IMG/VR virus record: IMGVR_UViG_3300046665_000548
Span: 62,001 to 126,000 of that record
DNA length: 64,000 nucleotides
Direction: 5' to 3' (one strand)
Origin: a virus
A model generated the notes under the pieces. The model was given only the letters and a program-made list of their open reading frames with translations, searched no databases and was not told where the DNA came from. The translations under genes were made by a program, and so were the position numbers. Shown here piece after piece: positions 32,890 to 62,062 of this stretch (the stretch's first letter is position 1; each line of letters opens with the position of its first letter).

Positions 32890-32895
32890 TAAATA
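32890..32895 (+). promoter_or_regulatory. Late-type promoter core TAAATA five bases before the start codon
   Basis: TCTAAATAGGTGT precedes the ATG at 32901. Confidence 0.65.
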
Positions 32896-46441: not shown

Positions 46442-46516
46442 GCGAATGTAATTCAGTGGTAGAATGCCTCGTTGCCAACGAGGTCGCCGTGGGTTCGAGC
46501 CCCACCGTTCGCTCCA
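46442..46516 (+). tRNA. tRNA-Gly(GCC)
   Basis: Full cloverleaf: acceptor GCGAATG/CGTTCGC, anticodon stem CCTCG/CGAGG with loop TTGCCAA (anticodon GCC), T stem GTGGG/CCCAC with loop TTCGAGC, and encoded CCA. Confidence 0.95.
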
Positions 46517-46533
46517 GTCAGAAAGTTGTTTGT

Positions 46534-46610
46534 CGCGGGGTGGAGCAGCCCGGTAGCTCGTTAGGCTCATAACCTAAAGGTCGGTGGTTCAAATCCATCT
46601 CCCGCAACCA
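46534..46610 (+). tRNA. tRNA-Met(CAT), initiator type
   Basis: CAT anticodon in loop CTCATAA and an unpaired C1-A72 at the acceptor end, the mark of bacterial initiators. The anticodon stem TTAGG/CCTAA has two of the three usual consecutive G:C pairs. CCA encoded. Confidence 0.9.
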
Positions 46611-46655
46611 AACATTGAAAGAAATTGCCGACCTCAAAGGGTTGGCCAAGAGTGA

Positions 46656-46732
46656 CGCGGGATGGAGCAGTCAGGTAGCTCGTCGGGTTCATATCCCGGA
46701 GGTCGGTGGATCGAAGCCATCTCCCGCAACCA
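46656..46732 (+). tRNA. Second initiator-type tRNA-Met(CAT)
   Basis: C1-A72 mismatch and full GGG/CCC pairs in the anticodon stem (TCGGG/CCCGG), loop TTCATAT. The T loop is ATCGAAG, with A in place of the near-universal T54. CCA encoded. It differs from the first copy, so it is not a recent duplicate. Confidence 0.85.
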
Positions 46733-46766
46733 TTAAACGGTCTCCTTGTCCCGATAGACAGGAAAT

Positions 46767-46842
46767 GGGGCCTTAGCTCAGTTGAGAGAGCGATTCGCTG
46801 GCAGTGAATAGGTCGTCAGTTTGATCCTGACAGGCTCCACCA
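46767..46842 (+). tRNA. tRNA-Ala(GGC)
   Basis: Acceptor GGGGCCT/AGGCTCC gives the G3:U70 identity pair of tRNA-Ala. Anticodon loop CTGGCAG in stem ATTCG/TGAAT. The T loop TTTGATC has T where C56 is normal. CCA encoded. Confidence 0.85.
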
Positions 46843-46850
46843 CATAGTTC

Positions 46851-46925
46851 GGGCTAGTAGTTCAGCGGGAGAACGTTGCCTTTGCAAGGCAAATGTCGGG
46901 GGTTCAATTCCCTCCTGGTCCACCA
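46851..46925 (+). tRNA. tRNA-Ala(TGC)
   Basis: Acceptor GGGCTAG/CTGGTCC also has G3:U70. Anticodon stem TTGCC/GGCAA with loop TTTGCAA. T arm GGGGG-TTCAATT-CCCTC. CCA encoded. Confidence 0.92.
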
Positions 46926-46931
46926 CACTGC

Positions 46932-46965
46932 GCCTGTTTGACCTTCGGGAAGACAGGCTTTTATT
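46932..46965 (+). terminator. Intrinsic terminator after the five-tRNA run
   Basis: GCCTGTTT/AGACAGGC stem with a TTCGG-containing loop, then TTTTATT. Confidence 0.65.
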
Positions 46966-47118
46966 ACGGATGAGACCGGTTTACACCTACGGGGCCAAAC
47001 CGGGCCAATCTCACCGTAAGGCCCCTGGGGCTTAGTCCAGGCGCGGCCGGAGCGAAATCCGGTAGAGGGCTGCACGGGACGCCGGATAGTCTGCGGAGGG
47101 GTGGGAACCCCTTCCAAT
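46966..47118 (+). other. Structured non-coding stretch between tRNAs
   Basis: About 150 bases without a gene but rich in inverted repeats: TGAGA/TCTCA enclosing CGGTTT/AAACCG, CCTGG/CCAGG, and GGAGGGG/CCCCTTCC. It could be an RNA gene, a decayed tRNA or a processing signal. I cannot fold it into a standard tRNA. Confidence 0.35.
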
Positions 47119-47194
47119 GCGAACGTAGCTCAGTTGGTAGAGCGTCTGATTTCCAATCAGAATGTCGTGAGTTCGAATCTCATCGTTCGCTCCA
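47119..47194 (+). tRNA. tRNA-Gly(TCC)
   Basis: Acceptor GCGAACG/CGTTCGC, anticodon stem TCTGA/TCAGA with loop TTTCCAA, T loop TTCGAAT, CCA encoded and a T6 run directly after. Its last 15 bases overlap the end of the HNH gene on the other strand. Confidence 0.95.
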
Positions 47195-47836: not shown

Positions 47837-48061
47837 ATGCGTACTGATCTCACCGAAAAAGAGCACAAGTTGCTTCACCTGCTTTGGAATAATGGCCTTA
47901 AGGGTTCTATGTGTTGGATTCGTCGGGATGAAGATGAGGACACGAATTCCAGTTTAACATCTCTCATTGAGCGTGGATTAGTGGCGCGAAAAGATAACGG
48001 CTGGTTCATCTATATTACTGAAGACGGCGAGTTTTTGATTCGCTTCTACGGGAAACCCTGA
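47837..48061 (+). CDS. MRTDLT tandem family, copy 1 of 6: mini winged-helix-like protein
   Basis: 74 residues from the ATG at 47837; GTG starts upstream (47804) add a poor N-terminus. Plan: MRTDLTEKEHKLLHLLWNNG, an acidic linker (DEDEDTNSS), LTSLIERGLVAR and a wing-like NGWFIYITEDGEFLIRFYG. This fits a single winged helix with a recognition-type helix before a beta hairpin. First of six consecutive paralogues; the stop overlaps the next ATG. Function unknown. Confidence 0.75.
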   Translation: MRTDLTEKEHKLLHLLWNNGLKGSMCWIRRDEDEDTNSSLTSLIERGLVARKDNGWFIYITEDGEFLIRFYGKP

Positions 48062-48273
48062 TGCGCACTGATCTAACCGAGATGGAGCACAAAATGCTCT
48101 ACGACATCTCAAATGACACAGGGTATTGTTGGATTAATCGGTATGAGCATCCGAAAGCCAATGCTTCAATGGCATCTCTTATCGAACGTGGCTTAGTGAG
48201 AAAAGAAAAAAGCTTTTTCGTCAAGATCACTGAGGACGGCGCGCTTTTGGCACGTCTCTATGGGAAGCCCTAA
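48061..48273 (+). CDS. MRTDLT tandem family, copy 2 of 6
   Basis: 70 residues. MRTDLTEMEHKMLYDISNDT start, MASLIERGLVRKEKSFFVKI centre and LLARLYGKP end line up with the other copies. TGATGCGCAC overlap with copy 1 and TAATG with copy 3. Basic residues cluster at the wing (RKEK). Confidence 0.8.
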   Translation: MRTDLTEMEHKMLYDISNDTGYCWINRYEHPKANASMASLIERGLVRKEKSFFVKITEDGALLARLYGKP

Positions 48274-48518
48274 TGCGCACTGATCTGAACAACAACGAGC
48301 TTTGGTTGCTTGAATTTATTAATGACTGCGCGAGTGGCCGCTGTCACCCTCCTCGCGCTTACACGATTCGTGAGGTAGTGATTCTTCAAAAAGCACCTCT
48401 TTTAAGGTTGCTCGCGGATGGCATGGTAATAAAACGACCAGGAGAGAATCCCGCTATCGTGGACATTTACCCCACTGACGATGGCTTATTCATGCTTAGG
48501 CTTCATGGGGTGATCTGA
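48273..48518 (+). CDS. MRTDLT tandem family, copy 3 of 6 (most diverged)
   Basis: 81 residues. MRTDLNNNELWLLEFINDCA keeps the start, but the middle is longer and different (GRCHPPRAYTIREVVILQKA) before LLRLLADGMVIKRPGENPAI and a DIYPTDDGLFMLRLHG ending. Same overlap spacing as the rest. It may have a changed target or partner. Confidence 0.75.
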   Translation: MRTDLNNNELWLLEFINDCASGRCHPPRAYTIREVVILQKAPLLRLLADGMVIKRPGENPAIVDIYPTDDGLFMLRLHGVI

Positions 48519-48739
48519 TGCGAACTGATCTCACCGATGATGAGCACTGGTATCTTATCTACGTCGATTTTCATTCTGATCAAGGAAGAAAGTTTATCGG
48601 GTGGGTTTCTTCTTTCCACAAATCCGTAGACGCTTTGGTTGAGCGCGGCCTGATCGAGAAAACGGAAGACAAAAACAGTGTTTGGATTAAATCCACTCCA
48701 GATGGCGTACTCTTGGCCCGACTCTACGGAGAGCCGTAA
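48518..48739 (+). CDS. MRTDLT tandem family, copy 4 of 6
   Basis: 73 residues. MRTDLTDDEHWYLIYVDFHS, then VSSFHKSVDALVERGLIEKT and a wing ending WIKSTPDGVLLARLYGEP. The acidic linker seen in other copies is replaced by GRKFIGW. Overlaps both neighbours. Confidence 0.8.
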   Translation: MRTDLTDDEHWYLIYVDFHSDQGRKFIGWVSSFHKSVDALVERGLIEKTEDKNSVWIKSTPDGVLLARLYGEP

Positions 48740-48951
48740 TGCGCACTGATCTCACCCACCCGGAGCACATGCTACTCCAGGAAATATCGGATCATAGTGG
48801 TTTTGCTTGGCTTTCTCCGGATGATGACAAGGAAACGAATTCTTGCATAGCATCTCTCATTGATCGTGGATTGGTGAGGATACAAAATGTCTGGTTCATC
48901 TATATTACTGATGATGGCGAGCTTTTGCTTCGTATGTACGGAGAGCCCTGA
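48739..48951 (+). CDS. MRTDLT tandem family, copy 5 of 6
   Basis: 70 residues. MRTDLTHPEHMLLQEISDHS, FAWLSPDDDKETNSC, IASLIDRGLVRIQ and WFIYITDDGELLLRMYGEP. Closest to copy 6 (shared FAWLS and ETNSC/VTNSC segments), so these two probably duplicated last. Confidence 0.8.
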   Translation: MRTDLTHPEHMLLQEISDHSGFAWLSPDDDKETNSCIASLIDRGLVRIQNVWFIYITDDGELLLRMYGEP

Positions 48952-49169
48952 TGCGCACTGATCTCACCGAAATGGAGCACAAGTTGCTTCACCACATATC
49001 GCGAGTCGATAAGCAAGGTTTCGCTTGGCTTTCTCGTGACGAAGATGAGGTCACGAATTCTTGTCTGTCATCTCTCGTTGATCGTGGATTAGTGACGAGA
49101 GAAAATGGCTGGTTCATCTCCATTACCGAGGACGGCAAGCTTTTGATTCGTATGTACGGGAAGCCGTAG
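48951..49169 (+). CDS. MRTDLT tandem family, copy 6 of 6
   Basis: 72 residues. MRTDLTEMEHKLLHHISRVD, GFAWLSRDEDEVTNSC, LSSLVDRGLVTRENGW and ISITEDGKLLIRMYGKP. Its stop lies just before the TAAATA of the leader-protein block, so the array ends where late-type transcription begins. Confidence 0.8.
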   Translation: MRTDLTEMEHKLLHHISRVDKQGFAWLSRDEDEVTNSCLSSLVDRGLVTRENGWFISITEDGKLLIRMYGKP

Positions 49170-49173
49170 CGTC

Positions 49174-49179
49174 TAAATA
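49174..49179 (+). promoter_or_regulatory. Late-type promoter core TAAATA five bases before the leader block
   Basis: TCTAAATACTCGC precedes the ATG at 49185 and probably drives the seven-gene run to 52407. Confidence 0.65.
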
Positions 49180-49184
49180 CTCGC

Positions 49185-49877
49185 ATGAACATGCGCGACA
49201 TCATCACTCTCATTGAAACTCAAGAGCTAGACGAGATTGAACTCGGTGGCCAGTTGGACAGTTCGTTTGTTGATGATCTCGACAAGAAAGATTTGAGCAG
49301 CGATCAGCTTGATCTTTTCGAACCAACCACGACGGGTCAGCCGCGTCTTCCCGCCAATATGAAGTTGATCGGCCGTACGGGTGCGTATTACGTGGCGCAA
49401 CGCACCGGGCCGCTTCCTGGGCAATCTCAATCCAAAGACGAACATCTATACGTGTTCATCAAAGACAATAAAGCTGCGGGCTATATCTGCCTGTATCCGT
49501 GGAGCGGCGATCACGTCAATTATCCGCATCAAGTGAGCTACCAGCCTGATCTGCACGGCAAGGGTCTTCGCACGGCGGCTGTAATGGTTATGCCGGATTT
49601 TCGCGGACAGAACCTTGGCCCGACTATGTACAAATGGGTTTTGGAGAACGTTTGCGACTACATCATTGCCGATGCCACTCACACCCAGGGCGGCGCTGCA
49701 CTCTGGAAGAGAATGCGGGCGATGAAAAATGTGTTTGCGGTAGAGATTTGGAATGCTGACAAATACGAGACGCAACCACGTTGGCACAGGCATGTGTATG
49801 ATCGTGACCACTACATTCCGTGGATCACATTAAGAGGGCGCGAACATAACATTCGGACCGGGGAGGACGACGAATGA
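49185..49877 (+). CDS. Leader protein 1: GNAT-like acetyltransferase, predicted capsid-packaged
   Basis: 230 residues. Leader MNMRDIITLIE|T (L-I-E at 9-11), a spacer, then a GNAT-like core: an HLYVFIKDNKAAGYICLYPW strand pair, VMVMPDFRGQNLGPTMYKWV (R-G-x-x-L-G acetyl-CoA-type loop) and a GGAALWKRM segment. It would acetylate an amine on a protein or small molecule in the host. Late-type promoter five bases before the ATG and ATGA overlap with the next gene. Confidence 0.75.
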   Translation: MNMRDIITLIETQELDEIELGGQLDSSFVDDLDKKDLSSDQLDLFEPTTTGQPRLPANMKLIGRTGAYYVAQRTGPLPGQSQSKDEHLYVFIKDNKAAGYICLYPWSGDHVNYPHQVSYQPDLHGKGLRTAAVMVMPDFRGQNLGPTMYKWVLENVCDYIIADATHTQGGAALWKRMRAMKNVFAVEIWNADKYETQPRWHRHVYDRDHYIPWITLRGREHNIRTGEDDE

Positions 49878-50365
49878 ATATGCGCGATCTTATGACGCTC
49901 GTTGAGGCGCGCGGAGGAACGAAGCTTTATCACGGTTCAAAGAAATCGTTTCCTGTTGGGTTTGTTCTTGAGCCTCAGAAAGATGGCTATGTTCACGCCA
50001 ACAGTGGCGATGAGTTTGATGCGCAAATCAAGATCACGGAGCAGTTGCTCGAAAAATTTCGACCATCAGATCAATTATCCAGATACGAGTCTGTTTTCGT
50101 AACAACAACCCCCGCTACTATTGAGTATGCTGGCGGCAGTACAAACCACGTTTATGTGGTCGAGCCACTTGGACCAATCTTTTTCGGCAATCTCTACTGG
50201 TACAGTCAGATCGAGAATGCAGCATTTGATATCGATGACTATGATCCAGATGAATTGCGTTCTTGGGCGCAAAACTACTGGGCTGCTAAACCATCTGGTC
50301 AATCAGAAACGTATGAGTATCGAACCAATAAGGCGCGGATCGTCAAAGAGGTAAAATGGCGATGA
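49874..50365 (+). CDS. Leader protein 2: Arr-like ADP-ribosyltransferase candidate
   Basis: 163 residues. Leader MNMRDLMTLVE|A. Then TKLYHGSKKSFPVGFVLEPQ, which matches the first strand and loop of Arr (rifampin ADP-ribosyltransferase) with its His-Gly-(S/T) site, followed by YVHANSG, ESVFVTTTPATIEYAGG and VYVVEPLGP. This suggests an ART fold that moves ADP-ribose from NAD to a target. Overlaps both neighbours by four bases. Catalysis is unproven. Confidence 0.75.
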   Translation: MNMRDLMTLVEARGGTKLYHGSKKSFPVGFVLEPQKDGYVHANSGDEFDAQIKITEQLLEKFRPSDQLSRYESVFVTTTPATIEYAGGSTNHVYVVEPLGPIFFGNLYWYSQIENAAFDIDDYDPDELRSWAQNYWAAKPSGQSETYEYRTNKARIVKEVKWR

Positions 50366-50673
50366 ACATGCGCGACCTGATCTCTATCTGTGAAGCTGAA
50401 GACCTCAAAGCGTTGATGGCCAGCATTCGCGAACGTAACAATGCGGCTGAGGTTATGCTGCGGGATGCACTGTCTAACTCCTCACGACTGGCGCTTGTTC
50501 ACCCCGAGGGCAAGAAGATTTTGGTCAGCAAGTCTCTCGACCCCGACTACAAGTGGCGTCTCACTTACTTTGACGACGCTGGTCCATCGGGCCACGTCGA
50601 ATATCGTGATATCACGCGCGAGATGTCCAACGAAATTGCGATGGCTCTCAAGAACGGGTACGTGCGATCATGA
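50362..50673 (+). CDS. Leader protein 3: unknown body
   Basis: 103 residues from the ATG at 50362 (ATGA overlap), chosen because the product then begins MNMRDLISICE|A like its neighbours; an ATG two codons upstream is in frame. The body has a charged helix (LMASIRERNNAAEVMLRDAL), a strand pair (RLALVHPEGKKILVSKSLD) and a polar C-terminus. No family recognised. Confidence 0.7.
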   Translation: MNMRDLISICEAEDLKALMASIRERNNAAEVMLRDALSNSSRLALVHPEGKKILVSKSLDPDYKWRLTYFDDAGPSGHVEYRDITREMSNEIAMALKNGYVRS

Positions 50674-51038
50674 AGATGCGCGATCTTATCGACCTTACCG
50701 AGAGTGCAATTACAGCGACATCCATGGATGGACGCAAAGTTATTATTCTAAAGAACCCTTCTCCGGTTGTTCTGCTTGATAGGTTGAGGCGAACCAGGTC
50801 GTTGCGTGGAATTGTAGTTGGCCAAGATTTGTTTTGGGCCAACAGTTACTCTTTGATTCATGTTCAAATAGGCAAAGCCGTTGGTGCTGCTGATGGTTAC
50901 GGGGATGCCCGGCTCGACCTTAAATACAAAGACGGCGGCGCGAAGCTTTTCATTCTACCGCATAATAAATCGTTCGATGAAATTTCTGCACTGCCTCAGG
51001 TACAGAGATTACAGAACTACATTGCGGAGAAGACTTGA
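50670..51038 (+). CDS. Leader protein 4: WDAY-like domain
   Basis: 122 residues. Leader MKMRDLIDLTE|S. The body (KVIILKNPSPVVLL, then QDLFWANSYSLIHVQIGKAVG) has the same order of elements as 51670 and 40771, with WDAYxATH altered to WANSYSLIH. The end is a short helix. ATGA/TGATG overlaps on both sides. Domain function unknown. Confidence 0.7.
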   Translation: MKMRDLIDLTESAITATSMDGRKVIILKNPSPVVLLDRLRRTRSLRGIVVGQDLFWANSYSLIHVQIGKAVGAADGYGDARLDLKYKDGGAKLFILPHNKSFDEISALPQVQRLQNYIAEKT

Positions 51039-51670
51039 TGAATATGCGCGATCTCATGAAGCTTTGTGAGGCTCGGTATAGCCCACCCAAGCCACTCGAT
51101 GGCGGCCCGAAGATCGATGATAACAATCAGTACGGTTCATCGGCTCGTCGCCCAATGTTGCTCAGTCTTCCCGCTAGCCAACCGCAAAGTGCCTACCTTT
51201 TTCACGGTGCTCCTCTCGATCATCTCGTGTCTATTTTGCGAGACAATTGTATCAGCACCGGCATCAATTGGCGCGGTGAAGGCGAGCGCGTAGCATGCAC
51301 CCGCAATTGGAAGATAGCGCTAGGCTTTGGAAACCAAGGCGACTTTGATATGTTTCCGGCATTCCTGGTGCTGGACTGGGCTAAGCTAGCAAAGAAGTAT
51401 CACATCGTGTCTTACGAAGACTGTGACATGCATGGAGAGGCATGGAAAACTAGCGAACAGGAAGAAGCTGTCTGCGGAGAGATCACGCCTCTCAGTTCTT
51501 ATTTGATTTCGATCAATGTTGCGCCGGAAGTTCTTCTGGCTGCAATGCAGGATCGCGAATATGCTGATTGGGTTGTTGGCGAAAAGAGTTTCTTCTCGTC
51601 TCCTAGATATTGGTTCGCGGCTCTTCAGAGATTGTCTCAATCTCCAAAACTGAACGCTTGGAGACCCTGA
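51038..51670 (+). CDS. Leader protein 5: ADP-ribosyltransferase-like
   Basis: 210 residues from the ATG in TTGATGAATATG. Leader MNMRDLMKLCE|A. After a 45-residue linker, SAYLFHGAPLDHLVSILRDN, ERVACTRNWKIALGFGN and an acidic QEEAVCGEITPLSSYLISI segment give the order His-Gly, Ser/Thr-Arg, (E/Q)-x-x...E of ART folds. Probably an NAD-using toxin-type enzyme. Fold call moderately sure; active-site residues need alignment. Confidence 0.7.
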   Translation: MNMRDLMKLCEARYSPPKPLDGGPKIDDNNQYGSSARRPMLLSLPASQPQSAYLFHGAPLDHLVSILRDNCISTGINWRGEGERVACTRNWKIALGFGNQGDFDMFPAFLVLDWAKLAKKYHIVSYEDCDMHGEAWKTSEQEEAVCGEITPLSSYLISINVAPEVLLAAMQDREYADWVVGEKSFFSSPRYWFAALQRLSQSPKLNAWRP

Positions 51671-52407
51671 TGGATATGCGCGATCTCATGATCCTATTCG
51701 AGGGCAAAGCAGTAAAGGTTGAGATCGATGATCAACTGCCATTCCGGGTATACATCAATCCAACTCCGCAGCAGATGATGTCTGGTCGTCAGCGCGGTTT
51801 GATCGACACTGAAGGCAACCTGTATGTTTGGGACGCTTATCAGGCGACTCACGACAGTGTTGCGAACGAATTGGGTATCACCTGGGAAAGCGCATTGCTT
51901 CTTGAACCGGACAAGATTGAGATCGTTGGCGGCGACAAAAATCTTGAAAACTGGGTTCATATCAATCGAGCATACGGTGGCAAAATGCCTTTTGTTGAAA
52001 ACTCGCAGCAATATCCGGCCGAGACGTTCATGCATGAAGCCGAAGCCAGCTTGGCCCCCATGTCCGGAAACGTCTCCGCAATCCTAATACCTCAAGACGG
52101 CGATACCGTTGAGATTAATCACATCAGCGCGATGCCGATGCGCTCGGGTTGGGGCACAAAAGCAATGAATATTATCGTTTCGTTGGCAGACCGATGCGGC
52201 GTGACCCTAACGCTTGAGGTCGATAATGACTCGGACGATTGGGGCCATGACGACGAAGACGAGAGCCAACCCACTGACGATACAGCATCAATTCCGTCCA
52301 ACGATGATTTGATGGGTTGGTATGGCGGCTATGGATTTTCTGTTGCTGACGGTCTTTCCTCGCGCATTCAGATGGTAAGAAAGCCGAATACGGCTTTACC
52401 AATTTAA
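51670..52407 (+). CDS. Leader protein 6: WDAYxATH domain fused to a GNAT-like domain
   Basis: 245 residues. Leader MDMRDLMILFE|G. Residues ~20-90 carry the shared domain (FRVYINPTPQQMM, NLYVWDAYQATHDSVANELG). From ~120, NVSAILIPQDGDTVEINHIS, SGWGTKAMNIIVSLADRCGV and a final WYGGYGFSV look like a GNAT fold with an acidic insert (DSDDWGHDDEDE). A two-module effector candidate; last gene of the first leader run. Confidence 0.7.
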   Translation: MDMRDLMILFEGKAVKVEIDDQLPFRVYINPTPQQMMSGRQRGLIDTEGNLYVWDAYQATHDSVANELGITWESALLLEPDKIEIVGGDKNLENWVHINRAYGGKMPFVENSQQYPAETFMHEAEASLAPMSGNVSAILIPQDGDTVEINHISAMPMRSGWGTKAMNIIVSLADRCGVTLTLEVDNDSDDWGHDDEDESQPTDDTASIPSNDDLMGWYGGYGFSVADGLSSRIQMVRKPNTALPI

Positions 52408-52458
52408 CTTCCCGGTGTAGTGCTTACCGCTTCTCTCAACCCGAGGAGGCTCTACTAC

Positions 52459-53385
52459 ATGAAGTCTAGCAGTTTAGCGTTGATAGACCACACGGCGGTG
52501 ACTGCATTGCAGAATCTGCCAAAGACCCGGAAGATTACTCGGCAAGTCGCCGGGTTCGATGTCGAGGACGTAGTACCGTATACGTCTGATGATATCACAC
52601 AGGGTTTCAAACAAGACGCCGACGCTTTGCGGGCTTCGCTGTCCAGTGCGGGCATCACGCCTCTGGCGGTTATTCCCACGGTCTGGTGGGATCGGATTGT
52701 TACCCGATCCAAGCTGGTCGATTTCGAGCCGTCTGGGAAAGGAACGGTCGGCGTCCATCTCTCCGAATATGCGACGGCAATCAAACGCGGATGGTATAAG
52801 ACGATCTCGTTTTTCGCCACATGGTTTACGTTGGCGTTCGCCGTATCCGCTATTCTCTATCACACCGCTCCGATCAACATGTATGGCGTCGTGTTGCTAC
52901 CTTTGATCCCGACCGTGCTCGCGACTGCGGCGCTGGCCAATTGGTGGGAATCGGCGTGGGCATGGATCGTATCCAGTGTCTACACGATGACGCGCGGCGG
53001 CAACAAACGGCTTCTTGTCGAAATATTGAGAAAGAGCAAGGACGGCTACAGCGCACGGCATGTTGGCGTGACTCTTCCTCGGCCTCCTTCTAACGTCATG
53101 GACATCTTGCTCAAAGCTGATCGTGCACAGATGAGAATGCGCGTGGCGGCAGTTCCGGAAGCGGTTCAGTTGGCACAGAGCCCGCGTCAGCTTATCGCAA
53201 ACGAGGTCAGAGACCAGTGGTCGCAGGAAGCTCTGGAGCGTCGCGAAGCGGCTCGCGTGCGTGCGCTTGATCCGATCATCTACGTCATGAAGGGTTCGGC
53301 GGTGGCCGTGATCGCTCAGTTCGGTGACTTTCCCATCGAGCAGCGCATCGTGGAAGAGGTTGTTCAGAGCCGTCCTGTCGCCTAA
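52459..53385 (+). CDS. Membrane protein between the two leader runs
   Basis: 308 residues from the ATG at 52459 after GAGGAGG. No leader. Cytoplasmic-type N-terminus (~1-115), two membrane helices (~118-137 and ~142-162), then a long soluble C-terminus with helices and Arg/Glu-rich stretches (EALERREAARVRAL). No TAAATA precedes it; a terminator follows. No family recognised. Its place amid packaged-effector genes may be chance. Confidence 0.75.
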   Translation: MKSSSLALIDHTAVTALQNLPKTRKITRQVAGFDVEDVVPYTSDDITQGFKQDADALRASLSSAGITPLAVIPTVWWDRIVTRSKLVDFEPSGKGTVGVHLSEYATAIKRGWYKTISFFATWFTLAFAVSAILYHTAPINMYGVVLLPLIPTVLATAALANWWESAWAWIVSSVYTMTRGGNKRLLVEILRKSKDGYSARHVGVTLPRPPSNVMDILLKADRAQMRMRVAAVPEAVQLAQSPRQLIANEVRDQWSQEALERREAARVRALDPIIYVMKGSAVAVIAQFGDFPIEQRIVEEVVQSRPVA

Positions 53386-53406
53386 CTACCGAACGATACG
53401 AACACG

Positions 53407-53440
53407 AAAGGGCTGGCCGAAAGGCTGGCCCTTTTTCTTT
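53407..53440 (+). terminator. Intrinsic terminator
   Basis: Stem AAAGGGC/GCCCTTT with an inner GGCC-GAAA-GGC loop, followed by a T-rich tail. Confidence 0.8.
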
Positions 53441-53449
53441 TGGCAGTCA

Positions 53450-53455
53450 TAAATA
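53450..53455 (+). promoter_or_regulatory. Late-type promoter core TAAATA six bases before the second leader run
   Basis: GTCATAAATACTCACC precedes the ATG at 53462. Confidence 0.65.
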
Positions 53456-53461
53456 CTCACC

Positions 53462-53923
53462 ATGAATATGCGCCATTTCATTTCGCTTTGCGAAAGCCAC
53501 TTGTCAGATGCTTTTGAGGGGATCGACAAGCCAACATTAGTTCTCCCGGCCGGGACCGTTCTTTTTCACGGCACGGATCGCCCGGCCAGTGAGTGGGACC
53601 CGCGTGTTGACCCGATTTGGGGACCGGCATGGTTTGGAGCCGACTTTGAGGTGGCTAACAGTTACGCCAAATTTCAGCGCAGTGGCGAGAATGGCGAGCC
53701 GTACATCATTCAGTATAGCACCAACCGTAGCCTCAAGCTTCTAGAGGCTTCTGCGCCAGAAATTGCGGCGGTGATGGATGAATTGTACGACACCTACATG
53801 ACGGATGAAATCGCGGGTGCCATGCACGATCTTGGCTTCGAAGGCTGGCACATCAAAGATACCGAGGTCATGATCGCGGACGGCAACGCGCTTGATTTCG
53901 TCAAGATATTGAAGGTGCAATAA
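53462..53923 (+). CDS. Leader protein 7: ADP-ribosyltransferase-like
   Basis: 153 residues. Leader MNMRHFISLCE|S. LVLPAGTVLFHGTDRPASEW, PAWFGADFEVANSYAKF and PYIIQYSTNRSLKLL follow the ART order: a His-Gly-Thr strand, a W/Y-F-(A/G) strand before an A-x-x-Y helix, then a beta segment. Possibly NAD-dependent. The stop overlaps the next ATG. Confidence 0.75.
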   Translation: MNMRHFISLCESHLSDAFEGIDKPTLVLPAGTVLFHGTDRPASEWDPRVDPIWGPAWFGADFEVANSYAKFQRSGENGEPYIIQYSTNRSLKLLEASAPEIAAVMDELYDTYMTDEIAGAMHDLGFEGWHIKDTEVMIADGNALDFVKILKVQ

Positions 53924-54525
53924 TGGATATGCGCTCTCTCATTAGTCTTTGTGAAGACTACTCCGGACCTCCTTTCAAACCACGCAGCAAGTCACCAAAG
54001 TCATTCACGGTTCAGGACAACCTTGTGATTGTCCAGGACAGTGACAAAACCATTTGGGCCTACAACGGAACGCCACGTTCGAACTGGCATCCTGAGGCAA
54101 ATGGCAAAAAGATCGGCGGCGTGCTGCTCCAAGACCATGCTTCCCACGGTGAGGATGCGTGGTCAGTTTATAAGTCGGGCGTCGATAAGCCTTATCAGCG
54201 CAAGGGAGTTGCAAGAGCGCTCTACACGCAAGCCGAACAGAATGCTGCCGCTAAGGGCAAGTCGTTCGTACCATCGGGCTCCGTGTCGGATGATGCATTC
54301 CATTTCTGGAGCAATTTTAGGCCAGAGCGTATTGCAAAGGATGGGCGCAACTGGGCTCAGCATTACGTTGGCAAGCAGGTTCACTTTCAGGATCGCGACT
54401 GGGTAATTACTAGCGCAGCAAGAAGCGACGGAAGATACTTTATGGCGAAACTAGTGAACGGAGACAACACTACGGGTATCCCTCGCCAGATCGTCATCGA
54501 CCAGCTTGGGGATTTCTACAAATGA
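53923..54525 (+). CDS. Leader protein 8: GNAT-like acetyltransferase
   Basis: 200 residues. Leader MDMRSLISLCE|D. Then KKIGGVLLQDHAS, WSVYKSGVDKPYQRKGVARALY (the Q-R-K-G-V-A acetyl-CoA loop), a TQAEQNAAAKG helix and SDDAFHFWSNF form a clear GNAT core. The C-terminal ~50 residues (VHFQDRDWVITSAARSDG) are a small beta domain with HFQDR-type strands, perhaps for substrate binding. Confidence 0.8.
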   Translation: MDMRSLISLCEDYSGPPFKPRSKSPKSFTVQDNLVIVQDSDKTIWAYNGTPRSNWHPEANGKKIGGVLLQDHASHGEDAWSVYKSGVDKPYQRKGVARALYTQAEQNAAAKGKSFVPSGSVSDDAFHFWSNFRPERIAKDGRNWAQHYVGKQVHFQDRDWVITSAARSDGRYFMAKLVNGDNTTGIPRQIVIDQLGDFYK

Positions 54526-55046
54526 ATATGCGCTACTTGATGAATCTCTGCGAATCTCAAGACCCAGAGATCGAAAAACTTTTAAAGATGGACCCTTTCA
54601 GCAAGGGCAGTGCGTACACTCCGCACTCTCGCGAGAAGCAACTTAAGGCGAAAGAGGCAAGTGCTGCTACGAGAGAATTGAAGGCGATCATCAAGGACGC
54701 AAAACAGTCCGGCGTAGTCATTGAACTTTATCCGTCTGTCCAGACGTACAGCAGCGACATTCCTATGAAATGGATTGAGAACAACTCAGTCAAAGGTACC
54801 GCCGCCAAGTATATGCAGATGATCTGCGATCTCGCAGATCGATACGGACTAGAATTGAACCTGCGCGCGCAGTTGGGAGAGCCGAAACTAGTCGAATACT
54901 ACAAACGCTTCGGCTTCGTTATTTCGCCAGATCAAGAAGCGGCAGTCAAACTTGGTCTATACGGACGAGATGACATCCCAGGAAACAAACTAATCGGAAC
55001 GTCGCCATTTATGTGGCGTCTTCCAAGAACGGAGCAGACCTTATGA
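54522..55046 (+). CDS. Leader protein 9: GNAT-like body
   Basis: 174 residues. Leader MNMRYLMNLCE|S. A Lys-rich linker leads to VVIELYPSVQTYSSDIPMKW, KGTAAKYMQMICDLADRYGL and EPKLVEYYKRFGF, the last like the closing strand-helix of GNAT proteins. The acetyl-CoA loop is less clear than in its neighbour, so activity is uncertain. Confidence 0.7.
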   Translation: MNMRYLMNLCESQDPEIEKLLKMDPFSKGSAYTPHSREKQLKAKEASAATRELKAIIKDAKQSGVVIELYPSVQTYSSDIPMKWIENNSVKGTAAKYMQMICDLADRYGLELNLRAQLGEPKLVEYYKRFGFVISPDQEAAVKLGLYGRDDIPGNKLIGTSPFMWRLPRTEQTL

Positions 55047-55636
55047 ACATGCGAGACCTGATGAGGCTGTGTGAAGATGCAGCAACGCCATTCCAACCAG
55101 AAGCGCCCGCACCTCAAGACGCCGCGCCAGAACAAACTCCGTTCGAGAAGTGGTTTGCTGGTTCAAAGATTGTCGATGCTTCCGGCAATCCTCTCAAAGT
55201 CTATCATGGAACGTCGAAGGATCAGAATTTTCGGGCGTTCAAGATGAACAAGAACGGTATTTGGTTCACAGCCGATCCCGCCGAAGCGTCTCAATATTCG
55301 GTAGAAAACGACAGCATGGGTCACAAGTACGACAATGGCAAGTTCAATCCCGTGCACACGGCGTCCCGTGTTATTCCCTGCTATGTGCGCGCACTCAAGG
55401 TGATGTACTACGACGTATGGCCGGATCAAATTCGTCTGGCTGATAATTACAAGCGCGCTCAAGGTATCGTGTTCGATCAACTTAGATCGCAGGGTTACGA
55501 TGCCGTAGTTACTGGTGGACTCGTAGTCGCCATTGGAAGCCCGAATCAGATCAAGTCGGCAATCGGAAATCAAAAATTCGATCCATCGAAGAAGAACATC
55601 GATGAGGATGACGACGATCCCAGCACCAAATCCTAA
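55043..55636 (+). CDS. Leader protein 10: ART-PolyVal-type ADP-ribosyltransferase-like
   Basis: 197 residues from the ATG overlapping the upstream stop. Leader MNMRDLMRLCE|D, then a Pro/Ala linker. The body PFEKWFAGSKIVDASGNPLK, VYHGTSKDQNF, GIWFTADPAEASQY, GYDAVV and QIKSAIGNQKFD is typical of the ART-like domains found in phage polyvalent and MuF-type proteins. The C-terminal tail is acidic. Last gene of the leader block. Confidence 0.85.
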   Translation: MNMRDLMRLCEDAATPFQPEAPAPQDAAPEQTPFEKWFAGSKIVDASGNPLKVYHGTSKDQNFRAFKMNKNGIWFTADPAEASQYSVENDSMGHKYDNGKFNPVHTASRVIPCYVRALKVMYYDVWPDQIRLADNYKRAQGIVFDQLRSQGYDAVVTGGLVVAIGSPNQIKSAIGNQKFDPSKKNIDEDDDDPSTKS

Positions 55637-61822: not shown

Positions 61823-62062
61823 ATGCCTGCTCGCGAAATGGTCATTTGGGCGAACCGCACCGGCACCACGCTGCTCCCCGACAACGACCAGTGGACGAAC
61901 CGCTTCGAGGTCCATTCGGAAACCTCCTCGCGCGTCTACATCATCGCGCAGAACAAGGCGAACAAGACCTGGGGCTGCTCCTGCATGGGCTGGAAGCGTC
62001 ACCGCAACTGCAAGCACCTGGGCGCTGTTCAGCCCGCGCTCGCCAAGATCACGGCGCACTGA
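61823..62062 (+). CDS. SWIM-type zinc-finger protein
   Basis: 79 residues. TWGCSCMGWKRHRNCKHL is a C-x-C-x(n)-C-x-H SWIM motif, a zinc fold for binding DNA or protein. The N-terminal strands (RFEVHSETSSRVYIIAQ) may be part of the same domain. First after an early-type promoter. Target unknown. Confidence 0.8.
   Translation: MPAREMVIWANRTGTTLLPDNDQWTNRFEVHSETSSRVYIIAQNKANKTWGCSCMGWKRHRNCKHLGAVQPALAKITAH

Follow-up and report, generated by a model that had tools for sequence, protein, structure and literature searches.

A shared leader peptide on ten tandem genes of a 608-kb T4-type phage probably marks proteins for packaging into the capsid

Why should ten neighboring genes of a giant phage begin with almost the same 11 residues and then encode largely unrelated proteins? 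The question is raised by a block at positions 49185–55636 of a 64,000-nt stretch of DNA (the window), which covers positions 62,001–126,000 of the IMG/VR virus record IMGVR_UViG_3300046665_000548. The whole record (G000; 607,744 bases) is a T4-type phage of 608 kb. In its major capsid protein (MCP) it is closest, among cultured phages, to Phosso of Sinorhizobium (80%) and Atu_ph07 of Agrobacterium (69%), with Rak2-like phages next; coordinates without the G000 prefix refer to the window. We consider it highly probable that the leader is a T4-type capsid-targeting propeptide, such that the proteins carrying it would be packaged, cut by a gp21-type prohead protease, and injected with the DNA. 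Packing into the head and injection are the most likely fate because the common tag matches the cutting site of the phage's own capsid protease.

How well defined is the leader? The original prediction listed ten open reading frames (ORFs) with near-identical N-terminal 11-mers, and all ten are present on the + strand, starting at 49185, 49874, 50362, 50670, 51038, 51670, 53462, 53923, 54522, and 55043. They were described as consecutive or near-consecutive, which is accurate, the block being interrupted by one leaderless gene and a terminator. A scan of the window ORFs found the motif in none beyond those ten, and a pattern-free scan for common N-termini over unlike bodies returned the leader set as the top family in the window. 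The DNA core ATGRAYATGMG occurs nine times against 0.30 expected, a count reached in 0 of 100 shuffles. Codon pairs encode the same residue in 326 of 495 cases (66%) within the leader and in 40 of 495 (8%) within the 11 codons that follow. With the two Met columns excluded, 236 pairs agree in residue, and 125 of these are spelled with different synonymous codons, so the leader is not a recent DNA duplication; synonymous choices vary, and therefore selection acts on the leader peptide.

The leader is not confined to the window. A wider pattern gives 20 matches in the record versus one with the reversed pattern, while the MK-version of the leader gives none in the whole record. Two of the 20 were set aside: G000:15188, a conserved protein that looks ATP-grasp-like by eye and has a homolog in Phosso without such a leader, and G000:343804, an ORF of 38 codons. 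The accepted set is hence 18 genes, namely the ten of the block and eight elsewhere (at about G000:144176, 238971, 250285, 254103 on the − strand, 258208 on the − strand, 344181, 522618, and 522998), and the phage carries at least 18 leader-tagged proteins. Every accepted leader terminates in L-x-E or I-x-E, as had been claimed for the ten 11-mers. In the block, the residue directly after the Glu is, in gene order, T, A, A, S, A, G, S, D, S, and D.

What could recognize such an ending? A gp21-like protease, which the original prediction proposed to look for in the rest of the genome, is indeed encoded there (E=1.3e-27). It lies in a head module with the portal gp20 (E=2e-96), a gp22-like core protein (called from its position and coiled-coil look), and the MCP gp23 (Pfam Gp23, E=1e-94). 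The propeptide of this MCP has the predicted junction RLNE/AATAGAT, where a slash marks the predicted cut point after Glu. Phosso (LME), Atu_ph07 (LME), CBB (LRE), and PA5oct (LVE) all have the Glu at the aligned position, and of 64 further clade MCPs with a locatable junction, 63 have L-x-E there. The gp21 homolog itself begins MLNSASMFLTE/R; T4 gp21 trims nine residues from its own N-terminus (PMC9958956). The match between the predicted MCP junction and the leader ends ties the leader to the protease more strongly than any other evidence. Under the proposed mechanism, leader proteins would be made late in infection, and the leader helix would bring them into the prohead core by co-assembly. 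The gp21-type protease would then cut after the Glu ([LI]-x-E/) during capsid-protein maturation, and the freed bodies would remain in the head and enter the host with the DNA. The ten-gene block and the eight further genes would form one cargo set.

The ten genes form two operons, of six and four leader genes, in which neighboring genes share 1 or 4 bases. The operons are parted by a leaderless, membrane-protein-like gene and a strong terminator. The features, all on the + strand, are as follows (sizes in amino acids, aa).

49174–49179, +: TAAATA late-type promoter element (G000:111174), 5 bp upstream of the first leader gene
49185–49877, +: MNMRDIITLIE/ and a GNAT acetyltransferase-like body, 230 aa (PF00583, E=2.7e-5, above cut-off)
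49874–50365, +: MNMRDLMTLVE/ and an ADP-ribosyltransferase (ART)-like body, at motif level only, 163 aa (Arr-ms, E=0.064, below cut-off)
50362–50673, +: MNMRDLISICE/ and a small body without recognized similarity, 103 aa
50670–51038, +: MKMRDLIDLTE/ and a small domain that recurs in the G000:144176 gene and, less strongly, in the 51670 gene, 122 aa
51038–51670, +: MNMRDLMKLCE/ and a body without assigned family, with an ART-like FHG motif, 210 aa
51670–52407, +: MDMRDLMILFE/, a G000:144176-type domain, and a GNAT-like C-terminal part homologous to G000:522998 (E=1.5e-13 to L030), 245 aa
52459–53385, +: membrane-protein-like gene without leader, with its own Shine-Dalgarno sequence, intervening between the operons
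53406–53435, +: intrinsic terminator, end of operon 1
53450–53455, +: TAAATA late-type promoter element of operon 2 (G000:115450)
53462–53923, +: MNMRHFISLCE/ and an ART-like body (weak), 153 aa (ART-PolyVal, E=0.17)
53923–54525, +: MDMRSLISLCE/ and a GNAT acetyltransferase-like body, 200 aa (PF00583, E=3.8e-6, above cut-off)
54522–55046, +: MNMRYLMNLCE/ and a GNAT-like body, 174 aa (homologous to Atu_ph07 gp63, E=1e-6, leaders removed)
55043–55636, +: MNMRDLMRLCE/ and a predicted ADP-ribosyltransferase of the ART-PolyVal family, 197 aa (PF18760, E=5.7e-14)

When would these genes be expressed? TAAATA stands 4–6 bp upstream of the start in eight leader transcription units, and the leader pair 522618/522998 follows a further TAAATA site at 522066. 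The same element directly precedes the window genes for a head-tail adaptor, a virion structural protein, and a tail sheath stabilizer. The record also encodes a late sigma factor resembling gp55, and in CBB the late promoter has been proposed to be ATAAATA (PMC5259590). For these reasons the leader genes look late. The original prediction named a leader restricted to clearly cytoplasmic early proteins as a result that would contradict it; the promoters are of the late type and not early.

A broader feature of these promoters is their closeness to the start codon. In G000, TAAATA-N{2,8}-ATG occurs 108 times versus 13 in the reversed control, mostly with N4–N6 (window examples at 32890, 42292, 49174, and 53450). 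This enrichment is absent in T4, Phosso, Atu_ph07, CBB, and PA5oct, and TAAATA-N{4,6}-ATG is enriched in two near relatives (40 versus 13 and 46 versus 9). Late promoters this near the ATG suggest that leaderless late mRNAs may be a trait of the clade.

What do the leaders carry? The bodies had been described as completely different; most are mutually unrelated, but small paralogous sets exist. The claim of ART-like and GNAT-like enzymes stands at the Pfam cut-off for three window bodies only, GNAT for two (49185 and 53923) and ART-PolyVal for one (55043), and the others fall below it. Bodies outside the window include a DUF7178 protein and another GNAT-like protein and, by eye, one ParB-like and one kinase-like sequence. 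Nearly all leader bodies have no matches in Phosso, Atu_ph07, or PA5oct, and for 51038 and 49874 no relatives were found among viral contigs. A viral-contig relative of the 55043 body (L010) was rejected as a parallel; it lies inside a 3085-aa ORF on an otherwise unlike contig, and the leader is absent. PDB sequence searches gave no meaningful match to the weak ART candidates or to the block family of Atu_ph07. Overall, the cargo set is predicted to be rich in enzymes that would modify host proteins by ADP-ribosylation and acetylation.

Is this organization unique? Atu_ph07 (490 kb) has its own version of the leader, M[KR][WLYF]x[DQEN][LIV]xE (in short, M[KR]WxQLxE), which was picked by the pattern-free scan and is present in 21 genes versus one in the permuted control. 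Eleven of these genes are contiguous (gp53–gp63) and ten lie elsewhere. In an alignment of eight block proteins, five of the 17 invariant columns fall within the first eight residues, and identity to the first protein drops to 17%. As in G000, a tandem block is tagged with a leader ending in L-x-E, the capsid and protease are of the same types, and some bodies are homologous; Atu_ph07 differs in its leader sequence, in bodies that mostly belong to one YRGM family, and in the multi-domain gp53. The parts of the Atu_ph07 report available to us do not describe these genes as capsid-targeted (PMC6102473). Homologous bodies carry different leaders in the two phages: with leaders stripped, the 54522 gene matches Atu_ph07 gp63 (E=1e-6) and the G000:254103 gene matches an Atu_ph07 leader gene (E=1e-7). 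A profile of the G000:254103 family also matches PA5oct gp135 (E=3e-16), which is annotated as a virion protein detected by electrospray tandem mass spectrometry and begins MHLFELFDQIE/K. In Atu_ph07, 29 of the 46 proteins of coding sequences (CDS) 31–76, a range that includes gp53–gp63, were detected in virions by mass spectrometry (MS), only two of them predicted structural proteins (PMC6102473).

Some related proteins deserve mention in their own right. Atu_ph07 gp53 (L224:9485-11821; 778 aa) starts with the leader MKWNDLNE/ and combines a YRGM domain with a zeta-toxin-like kinase domain (E=1.5e-14) and two G000:254103-type domains, preceded by NLTE/LFDT and NLNE/LFDT; it looks like a cargo polyprotein. 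The G000:254103 domain also occurs in KVP40-like Vibrio phages, preceded by VNLTE/AFD, as in phage nt-1 VPFG_00035 (L100:3515-4435), which is near genes annotated as prohead protease inhibitors. Other viral contigs (L103, L168) encode three tandem proteins with a different common N-terminus, MKKIVRLTESDLVRLVKRVINE, possibly another shared-leader family.

How does the proposed system compare with known ones? The internal proteins (IPs) of T-even phages are diverse injected defense proteins whose only common part is the capsid-targeting sequence (CTS) (PMC3012670). T4 Ip1–3 block distinct GmrSD enzymes (PMC12373910), and a fusion of the CTS to green fluorescent protein localizes to the core (PMC9958956). 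Like T4 IPI, IPII, IPIII, and Alt, the proteins described here have a short N-terminal leader with an [LI]-x-E end on unrelated bodies, include an ART among these bodies, and share a genome with a gp21-family protease and a gp23-family capsid. They differ in the leader (MNMRDLIxLxE versus MKTYQEFIAE), in the arrangement of ten genes in two coupled operons, in the acetyltransferase-like bodies, and in having TAAATA 4–6 bp before the ATG. The system had been called far larger than that of T4, and for this signal it is, with 18 genes versus three for the MKTxxEF-type signal of T4, a pattern outside which Alt and others fall. Nearly all of the sequence-level expectations of the original prediction that were put to a test were borne out. 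At the level of sequence, then, the phage has the features of the T4 IP/Alt system and is new by leader sequence, copy number, operon organization, and enzyme content. The best reading is that it would be an expanded, lineage-specific form of T4 capsid targeting.

Two other classes fit less well. In phiKZ and SPN3US, many head proteins are processed by the prohead protease and ejected (PMC5694885), as proposed here, but their propeptides are mostly longer than 100 residues and their capsid is of another lineage; a leader of 11 residues and a T4-type gp23 place the present phage outside that class. Polyvalent proteins, proposed to act in phage conflicts (PMC5512222), can include the ART-PolyVal domain, as does the 55043 body (PF18760). 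They fuse many domains per chain, whereas the proteins here are mostly single domains, each with a leader, have 103–245 aa in total and at most one recognized effector domain, and so are not of this class.

Could the leader have a different role? First, it might send proteins elsewhere in the infected cell, such as the membrane, the replication compartment, or a phage complex, without being cleaved. Its resemblance to an amphipathic helix and the membrane-protein-like gene within the block (52459–53385) point that way, but this does not account for the exact [LI]-x-E end of every accepted leader, which is that of the phage's own MCP junction, for the same ending on the quite different Atu_ph07 leaders, or for a homolog being a virion protein (PA5oct gp135); we regard it as improbable. 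Second, and a shade less probable still, the proteins could be packaged structural or core proteins for head assembly rather than injected effectors. The T4 core proteins gp22, gp67, and gp68 are also cleaved by gp21 (PMC9958956), and the small bodies at 50362 and 50670 have no enzyme similarity. Unlike core genes, however, the bodies are not conserved, nearly all lacking a match in the three cultured phages compared; several match ART or GNAT profiles, and variable accessory content fits T-even IPs. Third, a cassette for translation initiation or operon spreading, in which promoter, start, and first codons are copied jointly with no protein-level role, would fit the recurring first codons and the many leader genes that overlap the preceding gene or directly follow TAAATA, but it is very improbable given the full leader on operon-internal genes without a promoter, the synonymous differences, the sharp drop in conservation past the Glu, and the ~100 other promoter-start arrangements that lack the leader.

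Several points weigh against packaging and injection as the explanation. No virion proteome exists for this phage, and its leader has no direct homology to T4 MKTYQEFIAE. The enzyme class is weak for seven of the ten block bodies, and AlphaFold models of 49874 and 51038 were unusable (predicted local distance difference test scores of 34 and 40), so no fold search was based on them. In Atu_ph07, all 29 MS detections in CDS 31–76 could in principle fall among the 35 genes outside gp53–gp63, as far as the available parts of that report go. In PA5oct, MS-detected proteins show no excess of a generic hydrophobic-x-E leader (4/78 versus 13/132, p=0.93). Because of this last result, no universal signal is claimed; the leader signal is lineage-specific, and an L-x-E ending alone predicts nothing. 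The pattern-free scan found no large leader family in Phosso or PA5oct, and IMG/VR relatives of the phage have 0–5 leader matches each, so the expansion is patchy.

Other features lie just upstream of the block. Six or seven tandem paralogs of 70–81 aa, which start with MRTDL, are coupled end to start, and are weakly winged-helix-like, occupy 47840–49169, directly before the first operon. Six clustered tRNA genes are found at 46442–47194, ~2 kb upstream.

What does the leader mean for giant phages? Most giant-phage genes have no known role. A packaging address that can be read from sequence turns dozens of unassigned genes into predicted injected effectors. The leaders also provide a source of new short tags, perhaps orthogonal ones, with which proteins could be loaded into phage heads. 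More tentatively, and with the balance falling just short of favoring it, giant T4-type phages may each use their own packaging address, and cargo genes may move between phages, each time acquiring the leader that suits the core and protease of the recipient. A full injected arsenal of at least 18 proteins would then be readable from sequence, including the multi-domain protein of Atu_ph07, whose internal cleavage sites would release several effectors. The finding also suggests that some megaphages have enlarged the internal-protein strategy of T4 into arsenals of enzymes that modify host proteins.

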